Shown in pieces: positions 9,516 to 53,491 of a stretch of DNA of 64,000 nucleotides. The stretch is taken from positions 62,001 through 126,000 of the forward strand of contig JAIYBT010000008.1 of NCBI GenBank assembly GCA_027488395.1. Reading direction: 5' to 3'. The notes beneath the pieces are model-generated. The model was given only the letters and a program-made list of their open reading frames with translations, did not search any database and was not told the DNA's origin. Source of the stretch: Methylophilaceae bacterium (GTDB lineage Bacteria > Pseudomonadota > Gammaproteobacteria > Burkholderiales > Methylophilaceae). Position numbers and translations under genes: made by a program. How positions within the stretch are numbered: position 1 is the stretch's first letter; every line of letters starts with the position of its first letter.

Positions 9516-9904
<389 letters not shown>

Positions 9905-9920
9905 GCCGATCTCTTGTGGT

Positions 9921-10394: not shown

Positions 10395-10417
10395 GACGGC
10401 CTGCATAAGTGAAATTA

Positions 10418-11167: not shown

Positions 11168-11184
11168 CACTGCTGGCCTACTCG

Positions 11185-34441: not shown

Positions 34442-35374
34442 CTAAAACTTAATCTTAGAGGCCACCAACGAAGCCGCGGCTGTGCGCGTTTCCACCCCCA
34501 GCTTTTGAAATACGTGCTCCAAGTGTTTGTTGATGGTACGCGGGCTGGTGCCTAAAATTTCACCCACATCTTTGTTGGTTTTGCCTTTGACAATCCAATA
34601 CAACACTTCGGATTCGCGCTTGGTGAGTTGGAATAGTTTGCCTAAGACTTCGATTTGCGCTTCGTCGGAGTGCTCACGTAAGACCACCACCCATTGTTCC
34701 TCGCTGGTGCTGGCCACGGTTAAACTGAGACGGGCGTTGCCATGACTGACGTTGAGGCCGGGCATGGTTTGTTCACCACCTTGTTGTTGCATGCAGCTTT
34801 CTAGCCACTGATAAATCATAGGCGGTAGGCTGGGGGTGATGGCGTTAGCTTCTTTTGCGGCCCATTCGGCAAAGTAGGTTTGCAGGTATTGTTTGGCTAA
34901 GGGGGTTTGCCAAACCAAGCGTTTGTCGTCAGGCAAAATCGCAATGGTGGCTTGACCAAAGGCATCTAACGCCGAGGTCGCTTGTTGCATTTTGGTGGCA
35001 TTTTGAATGTGGGTGCGCAATCTGGCTAAGACCTCTGCCGGGCGCACAGGCTTGGTCACATAATCAACGCCGCCTGCATCAAACGCCATGGTGACGTGTT
35101 CAATTTCGGTCAGGCCTGTCATAAAAATCACCGGGATGTGTTGGGTTTCTGGCGCGGCTTTAATCCGTCGACAAGTGCCAAAGCCATCTAAGCCCGGCAT
35201 CATCGCATCCATTAAAATGACTTGCGGTTGCATTAAATGGGCCACTTGTAAGGCCATTTCACCCGAGTTGGCAACAAAAACCTGATAGCCAGACTCGTCT
35301 AGCGCGTCGTGCAGATAGGCCAAATTTTCTGGCACATCATCGACAATCAAGACGGTGTGGTTGGGACTGCTCAT
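34442..35374 (-). CDS. LuxR-type response regulator, partner of the permease-kinase
   Basis: Response regulator of 310 residues in three parts. The receiver (about 1-125) has the acidic pair VDDV, phosphoacceptor Asp56 in VILMDAMMPGLDG and Lys in YVTKPVRP. A central region of about 110 residues (TSALDAFGQATIAILPDDKRLVW onward) looks PAS-like but is not clearly assigned. A C-terminal LuxR/NarL helix-turn-helix (FQLTKRESEVLYWIVKGKTN to TRTAAASLVASK) binds DNA. Its ATG overlaps the stop of the upstream transporter-kinase gene in an ATGA arrangement, so the pair is cotranslated. Candidate targets are the fmd/urt/ure genes upstream on the same strand; this is inference. Confidence 0.9.
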   Translation of the reverse strand: MSSPNHTVLIVDDVPENLAYLHDALDESGYQVFVANSGEMALQVAHLMQPQVILMDAMMPGLDGFGTCRRIKAAPETQHIPVIFMTGLTEIEHVTMAFDAGGVDYVTKPVRPAEVLARLRTHIQNATKMQQATSALDAFGQATIAILPDDKRLVWQTPLAKQYLQTYFAEWAAKEANAITPSLPPMIYQWLESCMQQQGGEQTMPGLNVSHGNARLSLTVASTSEEQWVVVLREHSDEAQIEVLGKLFQLTKRESEVLYWIVKGKTNKDVGEILGTSPRTINKHLEHVFQKLGVETRTAAASLVASKIKF

Positions 35375-38300
35375 TTTGGGTACTCCTCAATCAAGCGCTG
35401 TAGTGTAGCAAAATCAAAGCGCTCTATCGCTTGTTGTAATGCATTGATCATGGTGTGGTGTTGTGGATGTTGTTTTTGCAAGGTCGCCATCACTTCGCGC
35501 ATCCCTTTCACATAGCCCATACGTGCAAATTGGGCTAAGTGATCCAGCAAAGCAGCGGGTAAAGGCGGGAGACCATCTGCCGTGGGGGTTTGAATGGGCG
35601 CTGGCGGCCCCATCATGGCAGTGGTTTGCAAGGAAATAGGTTGCGCATAGCGCCAAGTCAGTTGCAATTGTTGCCCGATCCAATCCAGTACCTCTTCAAG
35701 ATTGACGGGTTTGACAAAGAAATCTTGCGCGGGAATTTTGGCTTGGTTATCTAAGTTTTTATCGTATGCGTTGGCCGACAGGATGGCAATCGGCAAACTG
35801 GCTTGATGCACTTTGCGAATAATATACGCCGCCTCCCAGCCATCCATCAAAGGCATGGCCAGATCCATCAAAATCAAATCTGCGTTGATTTGTTGATACG
35901 AATTGACACAGACTTGGCCATTAGCGGCCTCAAACACATGAAAGCCTAGTGGCATTAAGGTATGTTTGAGCAATTCACGGTCGACGGCCTCGTTATCCAC
36001 CACCAAAATCGTTTTGCGCGGGCCCTCGTAACCGATGCGTTGACGGATTGATTTTTTAGCAAAGCCAGAGGTATCGCGGATTTGCGATAAAAATAATCGA
36101 ATTTCAAAACGCGTGCCATGGCCAACCACGCTATCAAAATGGATTTCGCCCCCCATCAGTTCGGTTAATAATTTGCTGATGGTGAGCCCCAAGCCCGTGC
36201 CACCAATGCCCACCGTGTCGGCAGCCGTGCCGCGTTCAAACGGCTCAAAGATTTTTTCTACCTCACCAGGGGCGATGCCAGGGCCGGTATCTTCAACATC
36301 AATGTGCGCAATTTCACGCGCATAGCTGACGCGGAATGTCACACTGCCGCGGGTGGTAAATTTCACCGCATTGCCTAAAATATTGACCAAAATCTGCATC
36401 AAACGCTTGTGGTCTGCACGCACATATTCAGGCAGATTGCCGACTTGCTCAAAACGAAATTGCAAGCCTTTGTTTTGTGCTTGAATTTCAAACATGCTGA
36501 CGATTTGCGTGATGAAATCAGGAAAATGTAAGGGCTTTAAATCAAACGCCATTTTGCCGCTTTCGATACGCGCAATATCCAGCGTGCTTTCAATCAGTGA
36601 GAGCAAATGTTCACCACCACGGCTGATGGTTTTAATCGCTTGTTTGCGGTGTTCGGGAATACTGGGGTCATTGGTGAGTAATTGCGCGTAGCCCAAAATA
36701 CTATTTAAGGGCGTGCGTAGCTCGTGACTGATGCCAGTGATGTAGCGGCTTTTGGCTTGATTGGCATCTTCGGCAATCAGGCGCGCTTTTTGTAACTGCG
36801 CATCGGTTTTTTTGTGCGATTCGATTTCCTCGAGCAACAAACCTGTTTGACGATTGGATTCTTCTTGCGCCACGCGCCGACTGCTGGAGGTGAGCACTAA
36901 CCACCACGCAACAATACCGCCTAAAAACAGCATGGCCACAAAAATTTTGAGATAGCCTAATCTAAAGTGGCGTAACAGTTCTGGATACTCACGGCCGATG
37001 GTCAATGCATCATGTAAGTAGATCAGGCCGATGGTGGCCCCAAACAGACACATGGCAATCACCATCAGCAATAAATAATGGGCAACGCCGCCATTGAGAT
37101 GTGGCCACCAGGTTTTGGGTAACAGTTTACGGTTGAGGGCCTCCCACTGTGCACTGAGCCGTGCTTTTGGTTTGCATGCATCATGACAACGCGCATCGAG
37201 GCAGCAACACAATGAGCAAATTGAGCCGCCATAGGCAGGGCAATGTGCCATGTCGTTGACCTCATAGTTACGCTCACAAATCACACACCGTTTCATGGTG
37301 GTTGGGATGCTGTATTCTGGCCGGGGTCTGGCTAAGTAATATTGCCCTTTGGTGAGCCACGCAATCAAAGGCGATAGCGCCAACGCAGTAAATAGAGAGA
37401 TAAACGTTGAGAAAGGTTGAATGGCCACGCCAAAGACGCCGGTATAGGCCATGATGGAGACGGCAGAAGCGGCGAACATGGCACCGACGCCGACAGGATT
37501 GATGTCATACAAATAAGCACGCCTAAACTCAATGCCCGCGGGGCTGAGGCCTAACGGTTTATTAATGACCAAATCAGCGACCACCGCTGCAATCCAAGCG
37601 ATGGCGATGTTGGCATACAAGCCTAAAATCTCCTCCAAGGCTTGAAACACATTGAGCTCCATCAACACAATGGCAATCATCACGTTAAACACCACCCACA
37701 CAATCCTACCTGGGTGGCTATGGGTTAAACGGGCAAAAAAATTGGACCATGCCAATGAACCTGCATAGGCATTGGTCATATTCACTTTAATTTGCGAAAC
37801 GCATACAAACAATGCGGTGACGGCTAGGGCGACTTCGTGGTGGCTAAACACATGCTCAAAGCCTACCCAATACATATGCGTTGGATTAACCGCTGAGCTC
37901 AAAGGCATATCGCGATTAAACACCAGATACGCCAGCAATGCGCCCGCCACCATCTTGAGCATGCCTAAAATCACCCAGCCTGGCCCTGCAAGTAATACCC
38001 CCAAATTCCAACGCCAACGATTGGCTTGGGTTTTTTCTGGCATAAATCTTAAAAAATCTACCTGCTCACCGATTTGTGGAATCAACGCTACACCGACAGC
38101 GGTAGCAGCGCCAAACATGGTCCAATTAAAGTGATCGCCACCTTCATGGATGCCAGCAAAAGTACTGAGCTTGGATAGCACGTCTGGGTCCATGTGGAAA
38201 ATCGCCACAAACGGTAAAAACATCAAGGCGACCCAAATCGGCTGCGTAATCAGCTGTATGCGGCTGATCAAGGTCACCCCATGCGTGACCAAGGGAATCA

Positions 38301-38817
38301 CAATCAACGCACTGACCAAATAGCCTAAGTACAACGGCAAATGAAAATACAACTCGAGCGCATAGGCCATGATCGCGGCTTCGAGCGAGAGCAAAATAAA
38401 GGTAAAACTGGCGTAAACAAAAGAAGAGATGGTCGAGCCGATATAGCCAAACCCTGCACCACGGGTGAGCAAATCCATGTCTAGGCCATATTTTGCGGCG
38501 TAGTAGCTGATGGGTAGGCCGGTGAGAAAAATAATCGCACCCACCGCCAAAATCGCCCAGATGGCGTTAGCAAATCCATAATTAATGGTGATGGTGCCGC
38601 CGATGGCTTCTAACACTAAAAACGAAATGGCCCCCAGCGCAGTATTCGACACCCGCAAAATAGACCATTTACGAAACGCCCGCGGCGTATAGCGCAAAGC
38701 ATAATCTTCAATGGTTTCGTTGGCGACCCAATTGTTATAGTCTCGGCGGACTTTGACAATCCGCTGTATTGGTTTTGGTTGCACGTGTGAAGCCAAATTG
38801 GTTGGTGCTGTGGACAA
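35371..38817 (-). CDS. NCS1 permease fused to a hybrid histidine kinase
   Basis: Fusion protein of 1148 residues. Residues about 40-500 form a complete NCS1 (purine/cytosine/allantoin-type) permease with about 12 membrane segments. Residues 511-548 hold nine cysteines (CVIC, CPAYGGSIC, CCC, CHDAC). Two further membrane segments follow (about 579-600 and 620-642), then a coiled coil, the dimerisation domain with phospho-His698 (ISHELRTPLNS), and the ATPase domain with DTGPGIAP and GGTGLGLTI. The receiver (about 936-1050) has Asp985 in LILMDLAMPLMDG, and the C-terminal 65 residues are helical. The start codon is TTG at 38817 with AAGGG upstream. The receptor may sense a nucleobase-like or small nitrogen compound through transport or binding. 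It neighbours the urea/amide genes but follows their terminator. Confidence 0.93.
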   Translation of the reverse strand: MSTAPTNLASHVQPKPIQRIVKVRRDYNNWVANETIEDYALRYTPRAFRKWSILRVSNTALGAISFLVLEAIGGTITINYGFANAIWAILAVGAIIFLTGLPISYYAAKYGLDMDLLTRGAGFGYIGSTISSFVYASFTFILLSLEAAIMAYALELYFHLPLYLGYLVSALIVIPLVTHGVTLISRIQLITQPIWVALMFLPFVAIFHMDPDVLSKLSTFAGIHEGGDHFNWTMFGAATAVGVALIPQIGEQVDFLRFMPEKTQANRWRWNLGVLLAGPGWVILGMLKMVAGALLAYLVFNRDMPLSSAVNPTHMYWVGFEHVFSHHEVALAVTALFVCVSQIKVNMTNAYAGSLAWSNFFARLTHSHPGRIVWVVFNVMIAIVLMELNVFQALEEILGLYANIAIAWIAAVVADLVINKPLGLSPAGIEFRRAYLYDINPVGVGAMFAASAVSIMAYTGVFGVAIQPFSTFISLFTALALSPLIAWLTKGQYYLARPRPEYSIPTTMKRCVICERNYEVNDMAHCPAYGGSICSLCCCLDARCHDACKPKARLSAQWEALNRKLLPKTWWPHLNGGVAHYLLLMVIAMCLFGATIGLIYLHDALTIGREYPELLRHFRLGYLKIFVAMLFLGGIVAWWLVLTSSSRRVAQEESNRQTGLLLEEIESHKKTDAQLQKARLIAEDANQAKSRYITGISHELRTPLNSILGYAQLLTNDPSIPEHRKQAIKTISRGGEHLLSLIESTLDIARIESGKMAFDLKPLHFPDFITQIVSMFEIQAQNKGLQFRFEQVGNLPEYVRADHKRLMQILVNILGNAVKFTTRGSVTFRVSYAREIAHIDVEDTGPGIAPGEVEKIFEPFERGTAADTVGIGGTGLGLTISKLLTELMGGEIHFDSVVGHGTRFEIRLFLSQIRDTSGFAKKSIRQRIGYEGPRKTILVVDNEAVDRELLKHTLMPLGFHVFEAANGQVCVNSYQQINADLILMDLAMPLMDGWEAAYIIRKVHQASLPIAILSANAYDKNLDNQAKIPAQDFFVKPVNLEEVLDWIGQQLQLTWRYAQPISLQTTAMMGPPAPIQTPTADGLPPLPAALLDHLAQFARMGYVKGMREVMATLQKQHPQHHTMINALQQAIERFDFATLQRLIEEYPK

Positions 38818-38892: not shown

Positions 38893-38926
38893 ATCAATCA
38901 CTACGTTATTTAACGTAGTGATTGAT
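38893..38926. promoter_or_regulatory. Perfect 15-base inverted repeat upstream of the permease-kinase
   Basis: Arms ATCAATCACTACGTT (38893-38907) and AACGTAGTGATTGAT (38912-38926) are perfectly complementary, separated by ATTT. Neither side has a T run directly after it, so it is not an ordinary terminator. Its position, just upstream of the TTGACA box of the permease-kinase gene, suits an operator for a dimeric regulator. A cruciform or a back-up terminator for hupE is the alternative. Confidence 0.6.
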
Positions 38927-38949: not shown

Positions 38950-38976
38950 AAAAAAAACGGACACTTCACGTGTCCG
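38950..38976 (-). terminator. Rho-independent terminator of the urease operon
   Basis: Stem CGGACAC (38958-38964), loop TTCAC, stem GTGTCCG (38970-38976). On the minus strand it is followed by a run of eight T. It lies 53 bases after the hupE stop codon and separates the urease genes from the permease-kinase operon. Confidence 0.88.
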
Positions 38977-39028
38977 CATCTTAGCGTATTTTGTATTCGT
39001 CGCGCGCGCTATTGCGCTCGACCTTTGG

Positions 39029-39598
39029 TTACGTGTTAAACAGTGCCCAAACGCCTAACACCATCATCACCGCCCCAAGCCCATGGCTTACAACAAGTCC
39101 CCATTGTGGCTGCAAGCGTCCTACCACCCATCCCAATACCAATAAACCAGTGCTGGTCATCGCCATACCGATGAGCGGCAACAGATCCGTTCCTAATTCA
39201 AGTCCATGTAGATAGCCTTGCGCACTGGCGGTGATCACGACCACCCATCGTTGCATCAAGGAGGTCAGTCGCAATGACAGCAACAGCAATAAGCCCAACC
39301 CTAGCACACTCAGCAAGACAATATGTTCTGCCCAAGAAGCATGCAAACCCCAGAGGGCCGCCATACTCGCCAACAGCATCACGCCCATAAATAGCGGCGG
39401 CAATGGCCAGCCTTGTGCCGCAGGCAACCGCGCCGCCCAGAGCCCGATTGCGCACATCACCAACCAATGGTCCCAGCCCGTTAAAGGATGTAATAGTCCT
39501 GCTTGCAGGGTGCTATGTGCGAAGTGGCCAGGGTGTGCCCAAGCCAACGAAGCCGTCATGCTGATCCACAGCCCGACCAGTATTAAGATCTGTTTCAT
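39029..39598 (-). CDS. HupE/UreJ nickel permease-like protein
   Basis: Membrane protein of 189 residues of the HupE/UreJ family, thought to bring nickel (or cobalt) to urease or hydrogenase. It has a signal-like N terminus ending AWAHPGH and six hydrophobic segments. The metal-binding motif HPLTGWDHWLVM (HX5DH) is intact, and GYLHGLELG carries another conserved His. As the last gene of the urease operon, just before a terminator, UreJ is the more fitting name. It follows ureG by about 40 bases. Confidence 0.9.
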   Translation of the reverse strand: MKQILILVGLWISMTASLAWAHPGHFAHSTLQAGLLHPLTGWDHWLVMCAIGLWAARLPAAQGWPLPPLFMGVMLLASMAALWGLHASWAEHIVLLSVLGLGLLLLLSLRLTSLMQRWVVVITASAQGYLHGLELGTDLLPLIGMAMTSTGLLVLGWVVGRLQPQWGLVVSHGLGAVMMVLGVWALFNT

Positions 39599-39637
39599 GT
39601 GTGTTTTCCTTTCAATACAATCACTGGTGATGAACGC

Positions 39638-40291
39638 TTATAACATTAAGCCTTGCTTTTCGATAAAGCGCACTATCTCTTCCAACCCTTGCCCGACTTT
39701 TAAATTGGTAAAGATAAACGGTTTATCCCCGCGCATTTTTTTGGCATCGTGCGCCATGACCTCTAATGAGGCGCCCACCATCGGGGCTAAATCAATTTTG
39801 TTAATCACCAATAAATCAGATTTGGTAATGCCAGGTCCGCCTTTGCGAGGGATTTTCTCGCCCGCCGCCACATCGATCACATAAATGGTTAAATCGGATA
39901 ATTCAGGGCTAAAGGTTGCGGCCAAGTTATCGCCCCCACTTTCCACAAACACAATGTCTAAGGTACGAAAGCGCTTACTGAGCTGGTTGACTGCCTCGAG
40001 ATTAATCGAGGCGTCCTCACGAATCGCGGTATGTGGGCAACCGCCTGTTTCTACGCCAATAATACGCTCAGGGGCTAACGCTTGATGACGGGTTAAAAAA
40101 TCTGCGTCTTCTTTGGTAAAAATATCGTTGGTGACCACCGCAATGTCGTATACCTCACGTAAACGCTGGCAGAGCGCTAAGGTTAAAGCGGTTTTACCAG
40201 AACCAACAGGGCCGCCAATACCCACCCGTAATGGCTCTAGATATTCGCTGACTTCAGGGGTGGGCGTTGTAAATTGTGCGTGTATTTTCAT
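39638..40291 (-). CDS. ureG: Urease accessory GTPase UreG
   Basis: SIMIBI-class GTPase that delivers nickel to apo-urease with UreD and UreF. The 217-residue protein has the P-loop [11 protein letters not shown], the metal-binding CPH motif in [12 protein letters not shown], and base-recognition NKIDL. No His-rich N terminus is present. Its ATG overlaps the ureF stop by four bases, coupling the two partners that form the UreDFG complex. Confidence 0.96.
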
Positions 40292-40971
40292 GATCTAAAC
40301 AATCGACTATATTGGGTTTCGTGACGACACCCAGCAATGCTGAGCAAGGGATTAAAATTACTGATCTCGGCTTCAGGCAATGCCATGGCTTGCGCAACCA
40401 ACATTGGCAACTGCGCACCCAGCGTCAGCAATATTTTTTGGCCAGCCACTTGCCCCAAGGGCACGGCTTTCATGGTGGCACTGACTTGATTTTCTAACCA
40501 GCCCCAAGCATAGGCTTGCAGGGTATCGGCTAACGGAATTTGCCAGTGTTGCGCCAAGGCGGCATACACCAGTGGAAAACTAGGCGATGGCCATTGTGCA
40601 AGTGTTTGGCGCAACGACAGCGGCAAATCCTCTAGCGCCGTAACCAAGCGCACCAGCGAATAGCCCATCTGTTGGGTTTCCGCATAGGCTTCGGCGGTAT
40701 CGCGCCCCGCTAAGTAAAACGCCTGCCAAGACTGCACCGCATCAAAATCTTGCTGTTGCCACGCGCCATACAGTTGTTGCAACACGGGTAACTCAAAGCG
40801 GGCTTGGTAGTGCGTTAACACATCGCCTATCCAGGTGAGCGCCGTGGCTAAATCCTTGACCTCCCCCGACTCAATGCCCCATTCCAAGCCCTGCGAGTAG
40901 GTATAGGCCCCCACTGGCAGCATGGGGCTCGCCAATTGCAATAAGCGGCTTAATGCGAGGGCATCAGCCAT
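40288..40971 (-). CDS. ureF: Urease accessory protein UreF
   Basis: All-helical urease maturation factor of 227 residues that acts in the UreDFG complex and gates GTP hydrolysis by UreG. It starts [21 protein letters not shown] at ATG 40971, the standard N terminus, and includes [14 protein letters not shown] and the C-terminal [18 protein letters not shown] longer frame to 41172 lies wholly within ureE and is rejected. Its start overlaps the ureE end by eight bases. Confidence 0.93.
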
Positions 40972-41458
40972 GCTGCCGCCTGTTAGGTGGGCGTAAAAGC
41001 TGACTTGGCGCCTCGGCATCACCGTGGCGATGCCCGCCACCATAGGCGCCAGCTTCAGGTTCAAATGCAGCCAGTTCTGCTTGGACACTGACATGTAACC
41101 CAAGCAACATGGCTTGTAACACACTGTCTTGTTCCAAGCGTAACCAGCCATCGCCAATTTGCAGCGGCACATGCCGATTGCCTAAGTGGTAAGCGGCACA
41201 CATTAACTCACGCGTGGTGTTGGCGGTGACGCGCAGCACAGGTTCGAGCGCCGCCACAATTTGCACCACATAATCGCCCGTTTCAGCACCGACTAAATCA
41301 CCGCCGCGTAAAATCGTGCCCCGGTTTAAAAACAAGGCAGCCTCACGCCCCGAAGCCAAGGTCACGCGTAAGCGACTCTTTTGTCTTAACTCAAAAGGTA
41401 ATTCGAGTTGGTCATGGATCACGTCACTGCCCGCCATCCGCTCGGTTAAATGCATCAT
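40964..41458 (-). CDS. ureE: Urease nickel metallochaperone UreE
   Basis: Nickel carrier of 164 residues from ATG 41458 (a second ATG is three bases on). The N-terminal domain has QKSRLRVTLASGREAALFL and LRRGD-type RGGDLV. The C-terminal ferredoxin-like domain has the conserved YHLGNRHVPLQI with the interface nickel-binding His, and FEPEAGAYGGG. The tail GHRHGDAEA has only two His, so it lacks the long His-rich tail of some UreE. The longer open frame to 41593 overlaps ureC and lacks family similarity. It is cotranscribed between ureC and ureF. Confidence 0.92.
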   Translation of the reverse strand: MMHLTERMAGSDVIHDQLELPFELRQKSRLRVTLASGREAALFLNRGTILRGGDLVGAETGDYVVQIVAALEPVLRVTANTTRELMCAAYHLGNRHVPLQIGDGWLRLEQDSVLQAMLLGLHVSVQAELAAFEPEAGAYGGGHRHGDAEAPSQLLRPPNRRQHG

Positions 41459-41541
41459 AAGGATGACCGCCACTTGCTCGCTGCACACCATGGGTGATTG
41501 CAGTGCCGAATTAAGTAAAAAGAATGCATGGTTAAATAGGC

Positions 41542-43245
41542 TTAAAACAGAAAATAGCGTTGCGCCATCGGCAATACGGTCGCAGGCTCGCACACCAACG
41601 GCATGCCGTCCGCCAACACTTCATAGGTTTCAGGGTCGACCTCAATCTTGGGCAACCAGGTGTTATGGATCATGTCTGATTTTTTCACATGGCGGGTGCC
41701 TTTAACCGCGACCAAAGGCTTTTGAAGCCCAAGGGCCTGCACAGCAGGGTTTTGCAAAGCGGCTTGCGAGACAAACGTGATGGCGGTTTTTAAACCGCCA
41801 GCAAACGCACCAAACATCGGGCGATAATGCACAGGCTGGGGCGTTGGAATCGAGGCATTCGGATCACCCATAGCGGCGGCGGCAATCATGCCGCCTTTCA
41901 AAATGGTAAACGGCTTCACGCCAAAAAAAGCAGGCTTCCAAATCACTAAATCCGCCAACTTGCCCACTTCCACCGAGCCCACCACGTGCGAGATGCCATG
42001 CGTGATGGCGGGGTTCATCGTATATTTGGCAATGTAACGCTTGATCCGAAAATTGTCATTGCCTGGCGCATCTTCAGCCAAGGGACCGCGCTGTACTTTC
42101 ATTTTATGTGCGGTTTGCCAAGTGCGGATGATCACTTCACCGACACGGCCCATGGCTTGCGAATCCGAAGACATCATGGCGAACGCACCTAAATCATGAA
42201 AAATATCCTCCGCAGCAATGGTTTCACGGCGAATACGACTTTCAGCGAAGGCAATATCTTCGGCAATCGCTGGGTCTAGATGGTGACAGACCATCAGCAT
42301 ATCGAGATGCTCATCAATCGTGTTCACAGTAAAGGGACGGGTTGGATTGGTCGATGAAGGCAAAACATTGGCGTATCCTGCCGCCTTGATAATATCGGGT
42401 GCGTGTCCACCGCCTGCGCCTTCGGTATGAAAGGTATGAATCGTGCGGCCTTTAAAAGCGCCGATGGTGGTTTCAACAAAGCCTGATTCGTTCAGCGTAT
42501 CGGAGTGGATGGCGACTTGAATATCCATTTCATCGGCAACGCTTAAACAATTATCAATGGCCGCGGGGGTCGTCCCCCAATCTTCATGGAGTTTTAACCC
42601 GATCACCCCCGCCTCGACTTGCTCGCGCAAGGGTTGCGGCAGACTGGCATTGCCTTTGCCCAAAAAGCCGAGGTTCATCGGAAATGCTTCAGCGGCTTGC
42701 AACATCCGGTGTATATGCCAAGGCCCTGGCGTACAGGTGGTGGCAAAGGTGCCTGTCGCAGGGCCGGTCCCGCCACCAATCATGGTGGTCACACCAGACA
42801 TCAGCGCTTCATCGATTTGTTGCGGGCATATAAAGTGAATATGCGTATCAATGCCACCAGCGGTGATGATCATGCCTTCACCTGCAATAATCTCGGTACC
42901 CGCGCCAATCGCAATGGTGACACCGGGTTGAATATCTGGATTCCCCGCTTTGCCAATGGCAGCAATATAGCCGCCTTTAATGCCAATATCGGCCTTCACA
43001 ATGCCCCAATGATCCACAATCAGTGCATTGGTAATCACGGTATCGGCCACCTCAGCCGCCAGCCCTTGGCCTTGGCCCATGCCATCACGGATGACTTTAC
43101 CACCACCAAATTTGACTTCTTCGCCATAAATCGTGAAATCGTGTTCGACCTCTAGCCACAAATCAGTGTCGGCCAAGCGCATTTTATCGCCCACCGTGGG
43201 ACCAAACATTTCGGCATATGCGCGTTTATCGATATGAACTGTCAT
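41542..43245 (-). CDS. ureC: Urease alpha (catalytic) subunit
   Basis: Nickel-dependent amidohydrolase that hydrolyses urea to ammonia and carbamate. The 567-residue subunit is full length. Nickel ligands are visible in [11 protein letters not shown], the carbamylated Lys in GLKLHEDWG, His residues in [15 protein letters not shown], and the Asp in [11 protein letters not shown]. The flap-region sequence (MVCHHLDP) is also intact, so the enzyme should be active. It lies between ureB (45 bases upstream) and ureE. Confidence 0.97.
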
Positions 43246-43290
43246 GCGCTATCCTTACCTAGGCTTTGCTTAAAGCGATATTGATGTTGT

Positions 43291-43614
43291 TTATGCATGG
43301 CTTGCATCATCCAAGGCCCCCATGACGCGGCCAGAAAAGCCATACACTTGTCTGGCGCCTGCCAGTTTGACCAAGGCAACGGTGCGGGTTTGACCCGGCT
43401 CAAACCGCACGGCGGTGCCCGCAGCGATATTTAAACGGTAGCCATAGGCAAGGGCACGATCAAACGCTAGCGCATCATTGGTTTCATAAAAGTGGTAGTG
43501 TGACCCAACCTGAATGGGACGGTCACCCGTATTGGCGACATCTAAAGTGAGGGTCTCTCGACCCACATTCATAGCAATATTGCCATCGGCAATCCGCATT
43601 TCACCTGGAATCAT
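43291..43614 (-). CDS. ureB: Urease beta subunit
   Basis: Structural urease subunit of 107 residues. It starts [16 protein letters not shown] and includes the conserved [18 protein letters not shown] and [17 protein letters not shown] motifs. It forms part of the (alpha-beta-gamma)3 enzyme with UreA and UreC. As a separate gene from ureA it follows the usual bacterial arrangement, unlike Helicobacter, where the two are fused. Confidence 0.96.
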
Positions 43615-43685
43615 AAACGGCTTCCTTATTTGTTAGTATTGCATCAAGGGGCGCATACAAGCGGGTAGCGGCATCCCAATAAAAC

Positions 43686-43988
43686 TTATGGAATCGGATG
43701 ATGTACCGTGACTAATTTGGTGCCATCAGGGAAAGTCGCCTCCACCTGAATATCTGGAATCATCTCTGGCACGCCTTCCATCACCTCGTCGCGGGATAAC
43801 AATGTGGTGCCATAACTCATCAGTTGCGCCACGGTTTGACCATCCCGCGCGCCTTCCATGATGGCAGCGCTGATCAACGCGACCGCTTCTGGATAGTTGA
43901 GTTTTAAGCCTCGCGCTTTGCGCCGTTCTGCAACCAATGCGGCAGTAAAAATCAACAATTTATCTTTTTCTCTTGGGGTCAGTTCCAT
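43686..43988 (-). CDS. ureA: Urease gamma subunit
   Basis: Smallest urease subunit, exactly 100 residues from ATG 43988 ([18 protein letters not shown]), the canonical length. [24 protein letters not shown] and the C-terminal [16 protein letters not shown] are diagnostic. A GTG nine bases upstream is in frame but adds residues absent from the family. It sits 84 bases after ureD and 71 bases before ureB. Confidence 0.96.
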
Positions 43989-44072
43989 GACAATCACTTT
44001 TTATTAGAGGGTTCAATGCATGCGCGCATCCGTTTACAACGTTAAACGCTGCGTCACTTGCGCTGTGCCACA

Positions 44073-44942
44073 TCAAGTATTCCAAATGCGTGGCCGCTGA
44101 GCATCCCGTTCATCATACCAAGGGCGCAACAGTTGCCAACATTGTTCAAAATAATTTCTTGCTTGTTGTGAAGCCGCACCCACATAGCGGATGGCCAGCA
44201 CTTCGGGCAACGCGGTGATGCCAACCTTGGCGCCTACCACCTCAATCGCACGACATGCGGCGAGCATCTCTTCTGGCACCCTGCCCGCACACACCAAAAA
44301 AGTACCAAATACCGGTGCTTGCGCTAACCCAATCACGCTGGCCCGCAAGCCATCATCGGCACGCATCATTGCCCGCTCATGCCATATCCATTGGCCGGCC
44401 CGTGAAATGCGTTGTTGCAAAGCATAATGGCCCGAAGCCCACACTTCTTGTTGTGCTTGCCGACCCAAGCACACGATATCCCACATCGCAAGCTTGGCAT
44501 CATGGGCTAAGCTGATCTCGGCCTGAAACGCCACTTGCGCGGCATTAAACAAAATATTTTCTTGTGGCAACCACTCGAGCATACTGCCTTGCGCCAACGC
44601 AAACCTCAATTGCTGTGTGGCTTGCCCGCCATGCGCTTTATACCATTTACCCGCACCCGGGGTGGTGAGTAGTGCGCGCGCATGTGGATGGAGCGTCACA
44701 TTTAAGCGAAGCACATCCCCGCCAGCCACACCGCCGGGCGGATGCACAATCACGGCGTGACACACCGCTGGGCCCTCCGGATGCAAGGTTTTTTGTACCA
44801 CCAACGGCCCTTGATGCAAGCGATGCGACAAATAAGTGCCAGTGCTTCGATGGCTAAACGCCAGGGTTAATTCTGCATGCCATTGTTTACCTACAGGCAT
44901 CTCGGTTGTGGCATTCGGGGTTGGTATTGTTAGGTCATCCAT
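44073..44942 (-). CDS. ureD: Urease accessory protein UreD
   Basis: Urease assembly scaffold of 289 residues that binds apo-urease and recruits UreF and UreG. The conserved patterns HPPGGVAGGDVLRLNVTL, LTTPGAGKWYKA and EWLPQENILFNAA are all present. ATG 44942 (MDDLTIPTPN) is preferred to the GTG three bases before. It is the first ure gene; 267 bases without a gene separate it from urtE, so a separate ure promoter is possible. Confidence 0.94.
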   Translation of the reverse strand: MDDLTIPTPNATTEMPVGKQWHAELTLAFSHRSTGTYLSHRLHQGPLVVQKTLHPEGPAVCHAVIVHPPGGVAGGDVLRLNVTLHPHARALLTTPGAGKWYKAHGGQATQQLRFALAQGSMLEWLPQENILFNAAQVAFQAEISLAHDAKLAMWDIVCLGRQAQQEVWASGHYALQQRISRAGQWIWHERAMMRADDGLRASVIGLAQAPVFGTFLVCAGRVPEEMLAACRAIEVVGAKVGITALPEVLAIRYVGAASQQARNYFEQCWQLLRPWYDERDAQRPRIWNT

Positions 44943-45209
44943 CACAACACATCATGCCATAGCCTGAACTGCATGCACATTATTTTCAACGTCGTTTAAT
45001 CCCTGCCATGTTGCATAAAACGCTCATCACAACCCATTTCATACGCCAATTAACAGACGCCCACTTCCCTGCAGAAGATTGTGATCTAAGTCCTCTGGGA
45101 TACTTGGAGCATGAACGCCACGGCTGATGTTGTGAAGGGTGCCAAGATTGGCGCGTCCACCATGAAACGCACCAGTGCACGCCGCATTTCACAACGGCGT
45201 GCGGGTCTG

Positions 45210-45899
45210 CTACACGGACAAGTAACTTTTCACCTTGGCGGCATCGACGTTGCCGCGAGTATCTTCATGAATAAACTTACCTTTATCAATCACGATGATG
45301 CGGTCGGCCACTTCCATGGTAAAGCTCAAAACCTGCTCGGAAACGATGATGGTAATTTCACGCATTTTACGAATTTCGTTGAGCACTCTGGCAATGTCTT
45401 TGATGATGGAAGGTTGTATGCCTTCGGTGGGTTCATCCAGTAACAACACTTTTGGGTTGGTGACTAAGGCACGCGCAATCGCCAGTTGTTGTTGTTGGCC
45501 GCCTGATAAGTTACCGCCTTTGCGTTTACGCATTTCAAACAGCACAGGAAACAAAGCATAAATATCTTCCGGAATTTCACGCGTCACGGATTTCTCAAGG
45601 CCTGTTTCGATATTCTCTTGTACCGTCATATTAGGAAAAATCCAGCGTCCTTGCGGCACATAGGCCAAGCCTTTCATCACCCGTTCATGGGTGGCGGCAC
45701 CTTGTACATCAACGCCATCCACGGTGGCTTTGCTCGCTTTACTTGGCAAAATACCCATCAACGATTTAAACAAGGTGGTTTTGCCCATGCCGTTACGGCC
45801 CATAATCGCCAAGGTTTCATTTTTGTTGGCTTTAAAGTTTAGGCCATGAATGACTTGGCTTTGTCCATAACTTACTTGTAGGTTTTCAATTTCAAACAT
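45210..45899 (-). CDS. urtE: Urea/amide ABC transporter ATPase UrtE
   Basis: LivF-type ATPase of the urea transporter, 229 residues. Walker A is GRNGMGKTTLF, the signature LSGGQQQQLAIARAL, and Walker B VLLLDEPTEGIQPSI. EGIQPSII is characteristic of UrtE rather than of branched-chain amino acid LivF. It lies 33 bases after urtD and completes the five-gene transporter. The downstream 267 bases to ureD contain no gene. Confidence 0.94.
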   Translation of the reverse strand: MFEIENLQVSYGQSQVIHGLNFKANKNETLAIMGRNGMGKTTLFKSLMGILPSKASKATVDGVDVQGAATHERVMKGLAYVPQGRWIFPNMTVQENIETGLEKSVTREIPEDIYALFPVLFEMRKRKGGNLSGGQQQQLAIARALVTNPKVLLLDEPTEGIQPSIIKDIARVLNEIRKMREITIIVSEQVLSFTMEVADRIIVIDKGKFIHEDTRGNVDAAKVKSYLSV

Positions 45900-45932
45900 A
45901 ATAGGGGCTCCTAGACTGTCGTGTGCTGGCTA

Positions 45933-46676
45933 TCAATGACCCAAATACACTTCGATGACTTTTTCGTCGTTTTGCACTTTATCCATGCTGCCTTCGGCCA
46001 AAATTTTGCCTTGGTGTAGCACGGTGACTTTGTGCGCAATTTTTTTCACAAACTCCATGTCATGTTCAATCACAATCACGGAACGGTTTTGGCAAATGCG
46101 ATTGAGTAGCTCCGCAGTTTGATCGCGTTCTTTCGCACTCATGCCTGCCACTGGTTCATCGAGCATCAAAAGCTCAGGCTCTTGCATCAGCAGCATGCCA
46201 ATTTCCAACCATTGTTTTTGGCCGTGGCTAAGCAAGGCGGATTCCATGTCTAAAAAATCGGTGAGCATGATGTCGGCCGCCACTTTGCGCACTTGCTCCT
46301 CAACCGCTTTGGTGCGCTTAAAGGTGAGGCTGCCAAACACGCCACGGCCCTTGGGGTAGGACACCTCGAGGTTTTGATACACCGAGAGGTTTTCATAAAT
46401 GGATGGGTTTTGAAATTTTCGACCCACGCCTGAGCGTACAATTTCATGCTCAGACAGCTTGGTCAGCTCGGTATTTTTAAATTTAATCGAACCTGCGGTT
46501 GATTTGGTTTTGCCACAAATCAAATCGAGCACGGTGGTTTTACCAGCACCGTTCGGGCCCACCAACACGCGCAACTCGTTTTTATCGATATACATGGTGA
46601 GCTTGTCAACCGCCTTAAAGCCATCAAATGACACGGTTAAATCTTCTACCGCTAACACAAAATCGGTATTACTCAT
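45933..46676 (-). CDS. urtD: Urea/amide ABC transporter ATPase UrtD
   Basis: LivG-type ATPase of 247 residues. Walker A is GPNGAGKTTVLD and Walker B is LLMLDEPVAGMS. The signature motif reads LLSHGQKQWLEIGM, with SHGQ in place of SGGQ; this is normal for UrtD and helps tell it from LivG. The start lies two bases after the urtC stop, so the two are tightly coupled. Confidence 0.94.
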   Translation of the reverse strand: MSNTDFVLAVEDLTVSFDGFKAVDKLTMYIDKNELRVLVGPNGAGKTTVLDLICGKTKSTAGSIKFKNTELTKLSEHEIVRSGVGRKFQNPSIYENLSVYQNLEVSYPKGRGVFGSLTFKRTKAVEEQVRKVAADIMLTDFLDMESALLSHGQKQWLEIGMLLMQEPELLMLDEPVAGMSAKERDQTAELLNRICQNRSVIVIEHDMEFVKKIAHKVTVLHQGKILAEGSMDKVQNDEKVIEVYLGH

Positions 46677-46678
46677 GG

Positions 46679-47968
46679 TTAAGCTCCTCTTGCCGCAGGG
46701 GTGTTGACCACATTGGCTTGTTTGCTGGATGTTTTGGTGGTGGCTGCAACCTGGGTAGTGTTGGTTACAGCGCTGGTAAGTGCAGTTGCTTCGCTATCTA
46801 CCTCAGATGCACTTACCTCAAACTTTTTTGCCTCAGGCTTTTTTACATCAGACGTGCCTGACGCATCTTCCTTAGGTTTAAACCAACCGAATTTTTCAGC
46901 ATATTTGTTCCAGATGCCCGCCAAGCCATTTGGGAAGAACATCACCACCGCAATAAACAGTCCACCCATCAAAAATAACCACAACTCTGGGTAGGTTTCA
47001 GAGAACACGGTTTTGCCGTAATTCACCAATAACGTGCCGTATACCGCACCAATCAAGGAGGCACGGCCACCCACTGCACAGAAAATAATCATTTCAATCG
47101 AAGGCACGATGCCTACAAATGAAGGTGACATAAAGCCGACTTGCAAGGTAAACATGGCGCCACCGACCGCTGACAAAATGGCAGCAAAGCAAAATACAAA
47201 GATCTTAAAGTTGGAGACATCGTAGCCAGAGAAACGGACGCGCTCTTCCTTGTCGCGCATCGCCAATAACAACATGCCAAACTTACTGCTCATGATGTAT
47301 TGCGATAACACAATGGCACCAATCAATAACAAGCCATTGACGTAGTAAAGAATGTATTTGGCGCTATCGGTACGAATATCCCAACCAAGCATGGTTTTTA
47401 AATCGGTGATGCCATTGACGCCACCGGTGTAGCCTTGTTGCCCAACAATCAAAATGCTCAAAATCAGCGCCACAGCTTGGGTAATGATCGAGAAATACAC
47501 CCCGCCCACCCGCCGTTTAAACATGGCGTAGCCAATCACATAGGCAAATAAAGCAGGGATAGTTAGCACGGCAATGATCGTCAGCGGTAAGCTCTTGAAC
47601 GGCTCCCAAAACCAAGGCAAAGCAGTCAGTTGGTTCCAATCCATAAAGTCAGGGATACCTGGCGTGGATTGAATTTTGGTGCTGATCGGGTCTGAGGCTT
47701 CTAATTTGAGAAACATGGCCATGGCATACCCACCCAAGCCAAAGAAAATCCCTTGACCCAAACTGAGTACCCCACCGTGCCCCCATAACATCACCAATCC
47801 CACCGCAACAAACGCATAGGTGAGGTATTTACCAATTAAATTTAGGCGAAAAATATCCACCCCAAGCGGCAACACGATAAAGATGATGGCCGCTAACAAC
47901 GCCAAGCCCAGCACCCCTTCTTTGCCGCCCAGCACACGGCTGGTTGTCAATTTTTCCCATAGATTCAT
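46679..47968 (-). CDS. urtC: Urea/amide ABC transporter permease UrtC with C-terminal extension
   Basis: LivM-type permease of 429 residues. About ten membrane segments fill residues 15-350, including GHGGVLSLGQGIFFGLGGYAM and GGRASLIGAVYGTLLVNYGK motifs of UrtC. The start is set at ATG 47968 because GGAG lies eight bases before it; an ATG six bases upstream is too close to that site. The last roughly 60 residues are a hydrophilic, Lys/Ala/Thr/Ser-rich tail (from EDASGTSDVKKPEAKK on), longer than usual UrtC. The permease pairs with UrtB; in Methylophilus the equivalent system also carries short-chain amides. Confidence 0.92.
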   Translation of the reverse strand: MNLWEKLTTSRVLGGKEGVLGLALLAAIIFIVLPLGVDIFRLNLIGKYLTYAFVAVGLVMLWGHGGVLSLGQGIFFGLGGYAMAMFLKLEASDPISTKIQSTPGIPDFMDWNQLTALPWFWEPFKSLPLTIIAVLTIPALFAYVIGYAMFKRRVGGVYFSIITQAVALILSILIVGQQGYTGGVNGITDLKTMLGWDIRTDSAKYILYYVNGLLLIGAIVLSQYIMSSKFGMLLLAMRDKEERVRFSGYDVSNFKIFVFCFAAILSAVGGAMFTLQVGFMSPSFVGIVPSIEMIIFCAVGGRASLIGAVYGTLLVNYGKTVFSETYPELWLFLMGGLFIAVVMFFPNGLAGIWNKYAEKFGWFKPKEDASGTSDVKKPEAKKFEVSASEVDSEATALTSAVTNTTQVAATTKTSSKQANVVNTPAARGA

Positions 47969-48039
47969 TAACATTCTCCTCAGTTGATAGGGCGTACTTT
48001 GGTCAAACTTATACTTAAAAATGTGTGCAATTACCTAGA

Positions 48040-48957
48040 CTATTTGCGCAATTTAGAGGCAAACAAGCCTTCTGGTTTCACCATTAAAATACTGACAATG
48101 GCCAGCAAGGTAGTCACTTTACCCATCGAGCTGGTCATAAAGAATTGCAATACCGATTGCGCTTGGGCAATGCCGAAAGCAGAGGCGATGGTGCCGATAA
48201 TGCTGGCTGCGCCACCAAACACCACCACCATAAAGCTATCCACAATATAAAGTGTGCCAGTGGTTGGACCAGTGGAGGCAATGGTGGTAAAGGCCGCACC
48301 CGCAATCCCCGCAATGCCACACCCGAGGGCAAACGTAATACGGTCCACTTTTGCGGTGTTGATGCCCACAGCGCCTGCCATAGTACGGTTTTGAACGGTA
48401 GCGCGTACGCGCAAGCCCCAACGTGACTTAAACATAAAGGCATAGACGCCAAAGGTCACAAGCGCGGCCAGCGCCATCACAAACACGCCGTTAATTGGGA
48501 TATCAATATCCGGCGTCGGGTTGAACGAACCCAGCATCCACTCTGGCAACTCAGCACTGACTTCTTTCGCACCAAACGATGAACGGAAAATTTGTTGCAT
48601 GACGAGACTGAGGCCCCAAGTCGCCAACAGCGTATCAAGTGGGCGCTTATATAAATGTCTAATCATGATGAATTCGATAAAGTAACCGACGGCAAACGCC
48701 AGCACGAAGGCAATCAAAATAGCGAAAATAAAGTAGTAATTGGTAAAGCCATACGTTGCAGCCACTTTCGATAACATCACTGTGGTGTAAGCCCCAATTG
48801 TCATAAACTCGCCGTGGGCCATGTTGATCACACCCATTTGCCCAAAAATAATCGCGAGACCGAGCGCCATTAACAGCAACACCGTAAACATGCTCAAGCC
48901 AGAAAAGCCTTGCATGACGACAATATTGCCAATTTCTGCCATTGAATACCCAAACAT
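48040..48957 (-). CDS. urtB: Urea/amide ABC transporter permease UrtB
   Basis: LivH-type permease of 305 residues with about eight membrane segments. FGQMGVINMAHGEFMTIGAYT and FMVVVFGGAASIIGTIASAFG are characteristic of UrtB. There is no periplasmic DUF domain at the N terminus as found in some long UrtB proteins. AAGGAG precedes the ATG. It lies 179 bases after urtA, with a strong hairpin between them, and 71 bases before urtC. Confidence 0.94.
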   Translation of the reverse strand: MFGYSMAEIGNIVVMQGFSGLSMFTVLLLMALGLAIIFGQMGVINMAHGEFMTIGAYTTVMLSKVAATYGFTNYYFIFAILIAFVLAFAVGYFIEFIMIRHLYKRPLDTLLATWGLSLVMQQIFRSSFGAKEVSAELPEWMLGSFNPTPDIDIPINGVFVMALAALVTFGVYAFMFKSRWGLRVRATVQNRTMAGAVGINTAKVDRITFALGCGIAGIAGAAFTTIASTGPTTGTLYIVDSFMVVVFGGAASIIGTIASAFGIAQAQSVLQFFMTSSMGKVTTLLAIVSILMVKPEGLFASKLRK

Positions 48958-49092
48958 ATGGTCTCCTTAAAACACAACTTCTCAATCGGATTGCATGACT
49001 TGTGATGTGTCACGTCTTGCGTGTGTCCACCATCGGATGTGCCATGCCAACATCTAGCGCAGTGCACATCATTGGTGACACCTGTACCAAAC

Positions 49093-49113
49093 GGTAGCCG
49101 CACCGCGGCTACC
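49093..49113. other. Stem-loop between urtA and urtB
   Basis: Perfect nine-base arms GGTAGCCGC (49093-49101) and GCGGCTACC (49105-49113) with a three-base loop, 24 bases after the urtA stop. There is no T run, so it is unlikely to be a full terminator. Such hairpins after the binding-protein gene commonly protect the upstream mRNA and allow higher expression of the binding protein. Confidence 0.7.
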
Positions 49114-49136
49114 GCATGAACAGTCAAACGGTTAAA

Positions 49137-50381
49137 TTATTGATAACCTTTTGGAAATGGATCAGGTTTGATGTAATCAGAGGTATAGACCACTTTGGCT
49201 TGACCATCTTTGCCCCACTGACCGATACGCAATTTCGTAGTCAAGTGATGGTTGGTTTCTACCGTGACTGGACCTTCTGGTGCTTCTTTTAAGGTATAGC
49301 CTGGTAAGGCAGCTTGAACTTTGTCTACGTCAAAACTACCCGCACGCTCCACGGCCGCTTTGTATAACCATGGGCCCAAATAAGCCGCTTGTGTCACATC
49401 ACCAATCACCGCATCTTTACCCCAACGCTTTTTAAACGCTTCTACAAATTTCTTGTTTTCTGCGTTATCTTGCGATTGGAAATACTTCATTGCTGAGTAG
49501 AAACCAGCTAAGTTTTCACCACCAATGCCTAACACTTCATCTTCAGTCACTGAAATGGTCAACATGGTTTGTTTGCTAGAATTTAAGCCAGCTGCGTTTA
49601 ATTGTTTGAACCATGCCACGTTACTACCACCCACCACCGCAGCGTAAATCACATCCGGTTTTTTCAATTTGATTTTGTTGATCACAGAACCAAATTGGGT
49701 ATCACCCAAAGCGATGTACTCTTCGCCCACCACTTTGCCGCCCAAATGTTGCTCGATGTGTTTACGCGCAATTTTCATTGAGGTACGTGGCCAGATGTAA
49801 TCAGAACCAATCAAATAAAACGATTTGGCTTTTTTCTCTTTTGCAATCCAATCTAAGCCTGCCAAAATTTGTTGGGTGGCTTCTTGGCCTGTGTAAAACA
49901 CGTTTTTAGATTGCTCTAAGCCTTCGTAAAAAGTTGGGTAAAACAACAAGCCATTGTCTTTTTCAAACACTGGCAATGCAGCCTTACGTGATGCAGAAGT
50001 CCAGCAACCCATGACCGAAGCCACTTTGTCTTTTTCAAGTAATTTCTTTGCTTTTTCGGCAAAGGTTGGCCAGTCTGACGCGCCATCTTCTTGAATGATT
50101 TCAATTTTGCGGCCCAAAATACCACCCATGGCATTGATTTGCTCAATCGCCAACTTTTCAGCTTGGATAGAGCCTGTTTCACTGATGGCCATGGTGCCTG
50201 TTGCTGAATGCAAGATACCGACTTTCACCGTGGTATCCGTCACTGCCAAACCAGTGGTATTGACTTTTGCCGTTGGAAAATCAGCGGCAAAGGCGTAACC
50301 ACTGATCAGGCCTGCTGCCATCATGGCACCCATTAAAGCGCCACTGGTTTTAATAAAACCACGTCTATTTAAGCTACTCAT
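49137..50381 (-). CDS. urtA: Urea/short-chain amide binding protein (UrtA/FmdD type)
   Basis: Periplasmic binding protein of the transporter, 414 residues from ATG 50381. The N terminus has a twin-arginine type signal (NRRGFIKTSGALMG, cleaved near AFA). The mature part is a type-I periplasmic fold with VKVGILHSATGTMAISETG, DWPTFAEKAKKLL, CWTSASRKAALPVFE and YEGLEQSKNVFYTGQEA, all UrtA hallmarks. GGAG lies nine bases before the start. Because the formamidase genes lie directly upstream, the substrate could be short-chain amides as well as urea, as shown for FmdD of Methylophilus methylotrophus. Confidence 0.93.
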   Translation of the reverse strand: MSSLNRRGFIKTSGALMGAMMAAGLISGYAFAADFPTAKVNTTGLAVTDTTVKVGILHSATGTMAISETGSIQAEKLAIEQINAMGGILGRKIEIIQEDGASDWPTFAEKAKKLLEKDKVASVMGCWTSASRKAALPVFEKDNGLLFYPTFYEGLEQSKNVFYTGQEATQQILAGLDWIAKEKKAKSFYLIGSDYIWPRTSMKIARKHIEQHLGGKVVGEEYIALGDTQFGSVINKIKLKKPDVIYAAVVGGSNVAWFKQLNAAGLNSSKQTMLTISVTEDEVLGIGGENLAGFYSAMKYFQSQDNAENKKFVEAFKKRWGKDAVIGDVTQAAYLGPWLYKAAVERAGSFDVDKVQAALPGYTLKEAPEGPVTVETNHHLTTKLRIGQWGKDGQAKVVYTSDYIKPDPFPKGYQ

Positions 50382-50475
50382 ACGTTCTTCTCCTTGAAAA
50401 ATATATTTGCAATAAATCAATCGATTCAATCATTTGATGCATGTACTGTTTAGTCACCGATGCCAACGCAGACCA

Positions 50476-50826
50476 TCAGTGTCCGACCATCCACGGCCGG
50501 GCTGTTTTTTTGGTTTGCATTTGTAACGCAGGTTTGGCGTGTTCAGGATCGACTTGTTTTGCCTGTTTATCCGTTGACTTACACACATGCGTTCCAGTAC
50601 AACCACAACTTGAGCGCCTGCCACTTTTAGGTTCGTGCGCAGATTTCTCATTACGCTCATAGGCGGACCGTTGCAATTTGCTCATGATGGCCAGTTTTGG
50701 CACCGATAAAATACGCGGGCTGGTTGCCCCACAATCTGTACATTCAGCGGGCAAACTGGAATCACTCATTTTGCGTAGCGCGGTAAAAACGCCACATTGG
50801 TCACATTCATATTCATAAAGCGGCAT
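50476..50826 (-). CDS. fmdB: FmdB-type zinc-ribbon protein
   Basis: Small protein of 116 residues with an N-terminal zinc ribbon (MPLYEYECDQCGVF and ECTDCGATSPRIL, two CxxC knuckles) followed by a hydrophilic tail with another Cys cluster (SSCGCTGTHVC). The FmdB family was named from the Methylophilus formamidase cluster, where a regulatory role was proposed but is not firmly proven. It lies 46 bases after fmdA, matching the fmdA-fmdB order. It may bind metal or nucleic acid. Confidence 0.9.
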   Translation of the reverse strand: MPLYEYECDQCGVFTALRKMSDSSLPAECTDCGATSPRILSVPKLAIMSKLQRSAYERNEKSAHEPKSGRRSSCGCTGTHVCKSTDKQAKQVDPEHAKPALQMQTKKTARPWMVGH

Positions 50827-50872
50827 CTGCGTTTTCCTTTATTTCAAGCCAAGTGGATATTGACTCATCAAG

Positions 50873-52096: not shown

Positions 52097-52137
52097 TACA
52101 CTCATCTCCTTATGAAGAAATGGTTAAAAAGCGTAGA

Positions 52138-53328: not shown

Positions 53329-53491
53329 TGTTAAAGCTCCTTTTCGCGTTAATTAAACTAAGTCATCGTTGATTAAACTTGCGCTCAGCTTAACGAGTGA
53401 TGGAGGTGTGACAAATACGTCAATTTGCGTACTGTTGCGGATTAGAAAATCCCGCTAGACTGCGCTTAACACATTTGAATCTGGACTGGCA

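Follow-up and report, generated by a model that had tools for sequence, protein, structure and literature searches.

A probable sensor of urea and amide nitrogen formed by fusion of an NCS1-type transporter module to a hybrid histidine kinase in a Methylophilaceae bacterium

Fusions of a transporter with a histidine kinase are already known from CbrA, CrbS and Ks-Amt5. In CbrA and CrbS, a transporter of the SLC5 family is combined with a STAC domain and a histidine kinase, which is of the hybrid type in CrbS. According to the accounts in PMC5715377 and PMC7918813, CrbS is paired with a regulator of the LuxR family, and the operator is an inverted repeat. In Ks-Amt5, as reported in PMC5764959, a nitrogen-compound transporter has been turned into a kinase-coupled receptor. 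Here we describe an NCS1 version of such a fusion, encoded in a stretch of 64,000 nucleotides from a Methylophilaceae bacterium (assembly GCA_027488395.1, contig JAIYBT010000008.1, positions 62,001 to 126,000), hereafter called the window. A single frame of 1148 residues on the minus strand (35371–38817) joins an NCS1-type transporter module to a cysteine module and a hybrid histidine kinase, and it is located beside genes for the uptake and breakdown of urea and amides. Like CbrA and CrbS, the protein consists of a transporter of the same general fold and a histidine kinase, but the transporter is of the NCS1 and not of the SLC5 family, and it is extended by a module of eight cysteines and by two additional membrane helices. 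The cysteine module occupies the place of STAC; Pfam showed no STAC or PAS domain in the fusion, whereby it was not checked whether Pfam holds a STAC model. The targets of CbrA and CrbS are histidine and acetate genes, and the printed examples of their motif differ from the palindrome found here. Ks-Amt5 differs by its Amt domain, which acts in a trimer; neither the Amt nor the SSF family appears in the Pfam scan of the fusion. CodB and Mhp1 share the predicted fold of the transporter module but are stand-alone transporters.

The window contains the same kind of cluster as the fmdCABDEF genes of Methylophilus methylotrophus. Reports from the 1990s, as told in a review (PMC10781810), describe how formamide and urea induce the use of amides and urea in Methylophilus. 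The terms "two-component" and "histidine kinase" are absent from the main text of this review. The locus described here offers a candidate sensor and a candidate operator for the induction. The fusion probably senses the urea and amide diet of the cell, because it adjoins the uptake and breakdown genes in many bacterial groups and has a DNA control site in common with them. We consider it likely that the protein is a receptor of NCS1 origin which recognises urea or short-chain amides and drives the fmd, urt, ure and amidase genes; both the ligand and the control by the kinase are what we infer from this gene company and from the palindrome described below. New with respect to the known fusions are the NCS1 module, a set of predicted target genes that is unusually firm, and a palindrome before the kinase gene and before fmdC, the first gene of fmdCAB-urt-ure. 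No NCS1–kinase fusion was recognised by title or start of abstract in searches of open-licence PMC papers; subscription papers lie mostly outside this collection, so that its absence from the literature is unproven. If the proposal is true, NCS1 joins the short list of kinase-coupled receptor families, the step from transporter to receptor becomes comparable across families, and the palindrome can be used as a ready reporter.

The frame begins with a TTG codon, and a TTG start is possible at the equivalent place in several Methylophilus relatives, the starts having been picked by a script. All parts of the fusion are given here on the minus strand. The transporter module (residues 20–500, 37318–38760) is followed by the cysteine module (residues 511–548, 37174–37287), by two extra membrane helices leading into a coiled coil and the kinase (residues 577–715, 36673–37089), by the HisKA and HATPase_c domains with His698 (residues 688–910, 36088–36756) and by the fused receiver domain with Asp985 (residues 937–1045, 35683–36009). 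The only domains found by Pfam at E 1 are HisKA (688–754), HATPase_c (802–910) and the receiver (937–1045), and their presence within a single chain makes the protein a hybrid histidine kinase. The AlphaFold2 model of the whole protein has a mean pLDDT (predicted local distance difference test) of 84.2. It shows 12 transmembrane (TM) helices, of which TM1 (53–62/68–80) and TM6 (232–243/248–256) are broken, a small cysteine module with strands, and two long helices (577–610 and 614–715) which lead into the kinase. The open reading frame, Pfam and AlphaFold2 thus agree with the preliminary description, which had read a transporter, a cysteine cluster, two membrane segments, His698 and Asp985 into one frame. 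The fusion is regarded as genuine and not as a chance frame, because the protein measures 1114–1312 amino acids at 70 of the 75 family loci (again with script-picked starts) and the transporter module is conserved like the kinase core: the mean conservation is 0.71 for the transporter, 0.71 for HisKA, 0.61 for HATPase and 0.47 for the extra membrane region. The helical C-terminal part behind the receiver (residues 1088–1145, 35383–35556) belongs to no clear Pfam family.

His698 and the eight cysteines (residues 511, 514, 526, 534, 537, 538, 544 and 548, as checked on the translation) are invariant in 43 aligned members, including two with another kinase. This invariance would also suit a protein in which the cysteine module senses a metal or the redox state and the permease is a mere anchor. 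We hold such a role to be highly improbable: the permease is better conserved than the extra membrane region, as is expected for a part which keeps a site, and nickel sensing would not fit the many clusters that have no urease genes in the stretches read. The cysteine module would most simply be a structural zinc site.

The gene of the partner regulator (34442–35374, minus strand) encodes a receiver and a LuxR-type (GerE) helix-turn-helix domain according to Pfam. Its start overlaps the kinase stop in the sequence ATGA and is preceded by GAGGAG, which agrees with the coupling of the two genes noted in the preliminary description.

The transporter module is invisible to direct sequence searches. 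The Pfam NCS1 model PF02133 does not match the window module at E 10, nor any of the 43 members at E 0.1, and a profile search of the PDB sequences with the module gave no chain at E 10. Searches with phmmer provided no sequence proof of NCS1, and from an unfused relative they returned only noise. When the model of the whole protein was used in a fold search, the best 50 matches were all kinases. A second model, of residues 15–556, has a mean pLDDT of 84.4 and a predicted template modelling score of 0.86. Its first five fold matches in the PDB are structures of CodB and Mhp1, among them CodB 7qoa (E 1.3e-10, template modelling score by target 0.79) and Mhp1 2jln, 4d1a and 2x79, with 17–19% identity in the structural alignment; the predicted fold is of the LeuT type. 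CodB carries cytosine, and Mhp1 carries hydantoins. The SLC5 structures of the sialic acid symporter, CHT1, NIS, SGLT2 and the urea transporter DUR3 (rank 38) are found further down the same list. The preliminary description had held NCS1 and SLC5 to be different transporter folds, which is wrong, as they are different families of one fold. Its NCS1 label, on the other hand, is borne out by the predicted fold and by profile comparison. In hhalign, the profile of 40 members matches an unfused permease (locus L127, genome G342) with 99.9% probability, E 6.6e-32, 438 columns and 28% identity, and this permease is itself a PF02133 protein (Pfam E 5e-9, 35.9 bits, cut-off 23.5). The probability is only 1% against the SSF protein of the window (PF00474, SLC5-type). 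Despite the silence of Pfam, the module is therefore best called a divergent NCS1 member with a predicted, not a solved, fold. The L127 region (9084–12468) holds the nearest unfused NCS1 relative found, followed by a gene for a carbon–nitrogen hydrolase (PF00795).

The 12-helix fold looks intact, with TM1 and TM6 broken, and many polar residues are invariant in it. These features would also be expected of a true transceptor, in which the NCS1 module has kept the transport of urea, an amide or some other solute and the flux or occluded state sets the kinase. Such a mechanism has been proposed for CbrA, the SLC5 domain of which takes up histidine according to PMC13022988. We regard a transceptor as unlikely. 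Many loci encode an ABC importer of the urea family alongside, which makes a second importer less needed, and the kinase Ks-Amt5 has lost transport according to PMC5764959. A receptor is favoured over a transporter because this ABC importer adjoins.

The neighbourhood of 75 fusion loci was searched by tblastn with reference proteins from the window and from plasmids at a reference coverage of at least 40%. Counts at this coverage include weak UrtD and UrtE matches to general ABC proteins, and the following figure was recounted with identity thresholds and with UrtB–UrtE excluded. The genes urtA, ure, fmdA or amidase genes adjoin the fusion in 73 of the 75 loci, and in 60 of the 61 outside Methylophilaceae. 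The two loci without them are a 4.8-kb contig (L126) and a locus of M. aquaticus (L016) with none within 15.9 kb. The "Nitrilase" reference is the aliphatic amidase, so the tree label "+AmiE+Nitrilase" denotes one gene type. The regulator gene adjoins the fusion in 71 loci; the exceptions are L014 and L018, both at contig ends, and two loci with a variant kinase (L120 and L124). The 75 loci are not independent cases, because L022 and L101 coincide and several others are near-copies. The preliminary description had made its reading depend on a conserved linkage to nitrogen-compound genes, and this linkage is present across Pseudomonadota.

According to the genes within the sequence read, we labelled the clusters as amide-type (urtA 60–80% identical to that of the window, fmdA, often fmdB and amiE) or urea-type (urtA about 40% identical to that of the window, often with urease); others contain urease without urtA nearby. 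Formamidase FmdA (NF045496 over its cut-off) is encoded in 40 of 398 Pseudomonadota genomes, 39 of which also have the fusion, with G263 as the exception. The two genes are found on one contig, 2.9–12.1 kb apart, in 38 of these 39 genomes, and on two contigs in G260, while 14 of the 53 fusion genomes are without FmdA. UrtA is over its cut-off in 135 of the 398 genomes, that is in 50 of 53 with the fusion and in 85 of 345 without it, as counted from the E-values. The Fisher p values, uncorrected for relatedness, are 5e-41 for FmdA with the fusion and 2e-23 for UrtA with the fusion.

The genes around the fusion suggest urea and short-chain amides as the signal and do not favour nucleobases or hydantoin. 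With CodB and Mhp1 as the nearest folds, the signal might instead be a classical NCS1 substrate (hydantoin, allantoin, uracil or cytosine) that is broken down to urea or amides. The co-occurrence with FmdA in 39 of 40 genomes speaks against it, and the annotation of five plasmid regions names no gene for the breakdown of nucleobases, hydantoin or allantoin; the search of the 75 loci contained no such references. A classical substrate as the signal thus appears very improbable to us.

A candidate operator was obtained from 51 intergenic regions that separate the fusion from divergent urt or ure genes, none of these regions being from Methylophilaceae. The commonest 5-base dyads in these regions assemble into a single palindrome, ATACGTCA-N2-TGACGTAT, with the pattern TACGYN6RCGTA. 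Its strict form is present in 34 of the 51 regions, and in 24 of 40 after removal of similar ones, whereas 300 shuffles gave 0.023 on average. Of the 40 regions, 14 contain the best dyad, a number that did not exceed 3 in any of 40 shuffled sets, and addition of the core CGTCAN2TGACG raises the number of non-redundant regions to 29 of 40. The window contains exactly two strict sites, whereas shuffled windows have a mean of 0.10 and never two in 100. The first, TACGTTATTTAACGTA (38902–38917), lies 84 bases before the kinase start codon, and the second, TACGTCAATTTGCGTA (53416–53431), 87 bases before that of fmdC. The whole genome has four strict sites, of which these are two, against 28 for the control pattern read backwards. 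The other two may be chance occurrences: one is within an open reading frame, and the other is between two genes, which we take to be fhcB-like and MOSC-like.

The 75 loci (1.48 Mb) contain 69 strict sites, of which 66 are located before the kinase, urtA, fmdA or fmdC, two are intragenic and one is elsewhere; the counts for two control patterns are 3 and 7. This count is partly circular, because the set includes the 51 discovery regions. Methylophilus is outside the discovery set. In all 19 kinase loci examined, drawn from 20 genomes of the genus with the fusion, the site lies 100–151 bases before the kinase match. It is also upstream of fmdC in 21 of 22 loci, the 22nd being a fragment which begins inside the gene. 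The kinase pair of M. aquaticus (L016, genome G036) has no ure, urt or fmd genes nearby, and both the kinase and the distant fmdC retain the palindrome. Nine further stretches were chosen among the matches listed for a consensus-like or recurring site. In them, the site was found upstream of a distant aliphatic amidase gene, amiE, which had not been sought beforehand (5 of the 7 Methylophilus genomes having it), and upstream of a gene of the FmdA/AmdA family (3 of 4, the fourth being cut by a contig end). The product of the latter (PF03069; L145:3388–4872 and L149:3265–4737) has an N-terminus that we read as twin-arginine-like and is possibly an exported amidase. The remaining stretches hold a site in an open reading frame (L142), the fhcB/MOSC site, one known fmdC and two sites at the nitrite reductase gene nirB in one Methylophilus genome (L148, G048), one of them consensus-like and about 90 bases before nirB (position 2958) and the other inside it.

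The palindrome could belong to another regulator, either a global nitrogen regulator or FmdB, with the kinase–regulator pair merely travelling along. The contact of the regulator with the DNA is itself only deduced, and fmdB-like genes are common in the clusters. The distribution of the site argues for the regulator of the fusion. Upstream of urtA, it is missing from all 20 genomes without the fusion (upper part of the UrtA match list). Of 20 regions upstream of urtA that were read in fusion genomes, 17 are far from the fusion; among these 17, the site is present in 4 of 4 with a urease-type sensor and in none of 13 without. For urtA near the fusion it is found in 2 of 3, and G456 has a relaxed form only. 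The kinase itself carries the site in 19 of 19 Methylophilus loci, and in the urea-type loci L105–L108 and L135 the site is present without any match to fmdB in the searched stretch. We therefore consider ownership by another regulator improbable. Control of the neighbouring fmd, urt and ure genes, proposed in the preliminary description, is well supported by these comparisons, since linkage, co-occurrence and the palindromes at the kinase, fmdC, the distant amidase and urtA are in agreement.

Several points weigh against a receptor that controls these genes. The Pfam NCS1 model matches none of the members, and the profile search picks up no PDB sequence. Of the 40 non-redundant regions, 11 have neither the strict palindrome nor its core; these belong mostly to urease-type clusters, some of which carry the palindrome elsewhere. 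The variant-kinase loci L120 and L124 have no strict TACG palindrome within 20 kb, and amiE has none in 2 of 7 genomes. With one mismatch allowed, the window gives nine matches, a number reached by 6 of 100 shuffles; exact sites alone were used because this is no clear enrichment. Conservation of the palindrome within one genus is partly due to shared ancestry, and linkage cannot tell urea from amides as the signal. Finally, the review in PMC10781810 mentions a putative positive regulator within the fmd cluster itself. This is probably FmdB.

We propose the following course for the receptor. Urea or a small amide would bind in the central cavity of the NCS1-fold module. The change of shape would be relayed to the kinase by way of the cysteine module, the two extra helices and the coiled coil, and the kinase would autophosphorylate at His698. 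Direct transfer of the phosphate from His698 to the LuxR-type regulator is assumed, because the Pfam scan of the fusion found no HPt family and its helical C-terminus has no invariant histidine in the 43 aligned members. Since an HPt domain was not found, the fused receiver with Asp985 may serve as a modulator or sink. The regulator would bind TACGYN6RCGTA upstream of its own kinase gene and of fmdCAB-urtABCDE-ure, and in other Methylophilus the regulon would also include amiE and the amidase-family gene. It would activate its own operon and the fmd, urt, ure and amidase genes, leading to uptake and hydrolysis of the inducer. Whether the permease moiety acts as a receptor, as preferred here, or reports flux, both named in the preliminary description, the compound bound would be urea or a small amide.

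More tentatively, the family may be an NCS1-fold family, unseen by Pfam, which forms a dedicated urea and short-chain-amide sensor of Pseudomonadota and a near-obligate partner of FmdA, with its own operator and regulon. Amide and urea versions with differing half-sites may occur in one genome and may differ by the lid residue 311 (Glu, Asp or Asn). Three genomes (G527, G374 and G395) have two sensors each, one beside an amide cluster and one beside a urease cluster. Their sites are of the TACGTCA type at the amide cluster and of the TACGCC type at urtA, as though to keep two related regulators apart. Residue 311 (37885–37887) lies where a helix between TM7 and TM8 begins, and it adjoins the invariant Pro312. 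It is Asp in all 18 urea-type sensors and Glu in 32 of 39 amide-type ones (5 Asp, 2 Gln), and in Methylophilaceae it is Asn in 4 of 5 and Glu in 1 of 5. This column is the best of 660 scanned, but with three independent pairs (starred branches) and a sign test median p of 0.5 there are too few independent changes for significance, and it is a lead only. In the sensor tree, a quick tree with long branches and no bootstrap, the cluster type changes four times; a single clade for the three urea-type groups is not firmly rejected (approximately unbiased test, p 0.06).

The family is widespread and poorly annotated. Within the family of the window, 50 of 150 genomes have fusion matches at E 0.001, and in at least three of these genomes the match is partial (G071, G146 and G121). 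A genuine match was counted by us in 53 of the 398 Pseudomonadota genomes: 51 long ones, one partial of 586 residues (G373) and one piece of 50 residues (G385); the raw tally of 317 also includes matches to the linker or kinase side only. On plasmids, the module is found in 535 records, 342 from Klebsiella, which are probably many copies of few plasmids. One region of the Klebsiella set (L134) has urtABCDE, formamidase and aliphatic amidase genes beside the module. Among the matches listed, 13 of 30 plasmid rows are annotated merely as "ATP-binding protein". In L120 (8402–11056) and L124 (8366–11047), the NCS1 and cysteine modules are carried by a different, non-hybrid kinase of 885–894 amino acids, followed by a receiver-HisKA-HATPase protein and then by fmdA and fmdB.

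The window cluster is encoded on the minus strand and begins with the gene of an fmdC-type porin (52138–53328), which matches the ExtI-type porin model with 95 bits, below the cut-off of 150, and no Pfam family; it takes the name FmdC from its cluster position and from the likeness of FmdC to ExtI described in PMC5877670. It is followed by fmdA for formamidase (50873–52105; NF045496, 794 bits, cut-off 500), an fmdB-type zinc-ribbon protein gene (50476–50826; PF09723), urtABCDE for an amide/urea ABC transporter (45210–50429; each above its TIGR cut-off), ureDABCEFG for urease and its accessory proteins (39638–44945; profile and Pfam matches, with the starts of ureE and ureF not settled) and a ureJ/hupE-type membrane protein gene (39029–39598; PF04955). 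A terminator scan of 38950–53500 gave 17 sites against 17.8 in shuffles, so that internal ends are neither shown nor excluded. In consensus scans, a hairpin with a T run resembling an intrinsic terminator is located after ureJ (38957–38977, minus strand), and a promoter-like pair is located upstream of the kinase gene (38897–38870). This suggests that the kinase–regulator pair is transcribed as its own unit, apart from the ure genes.

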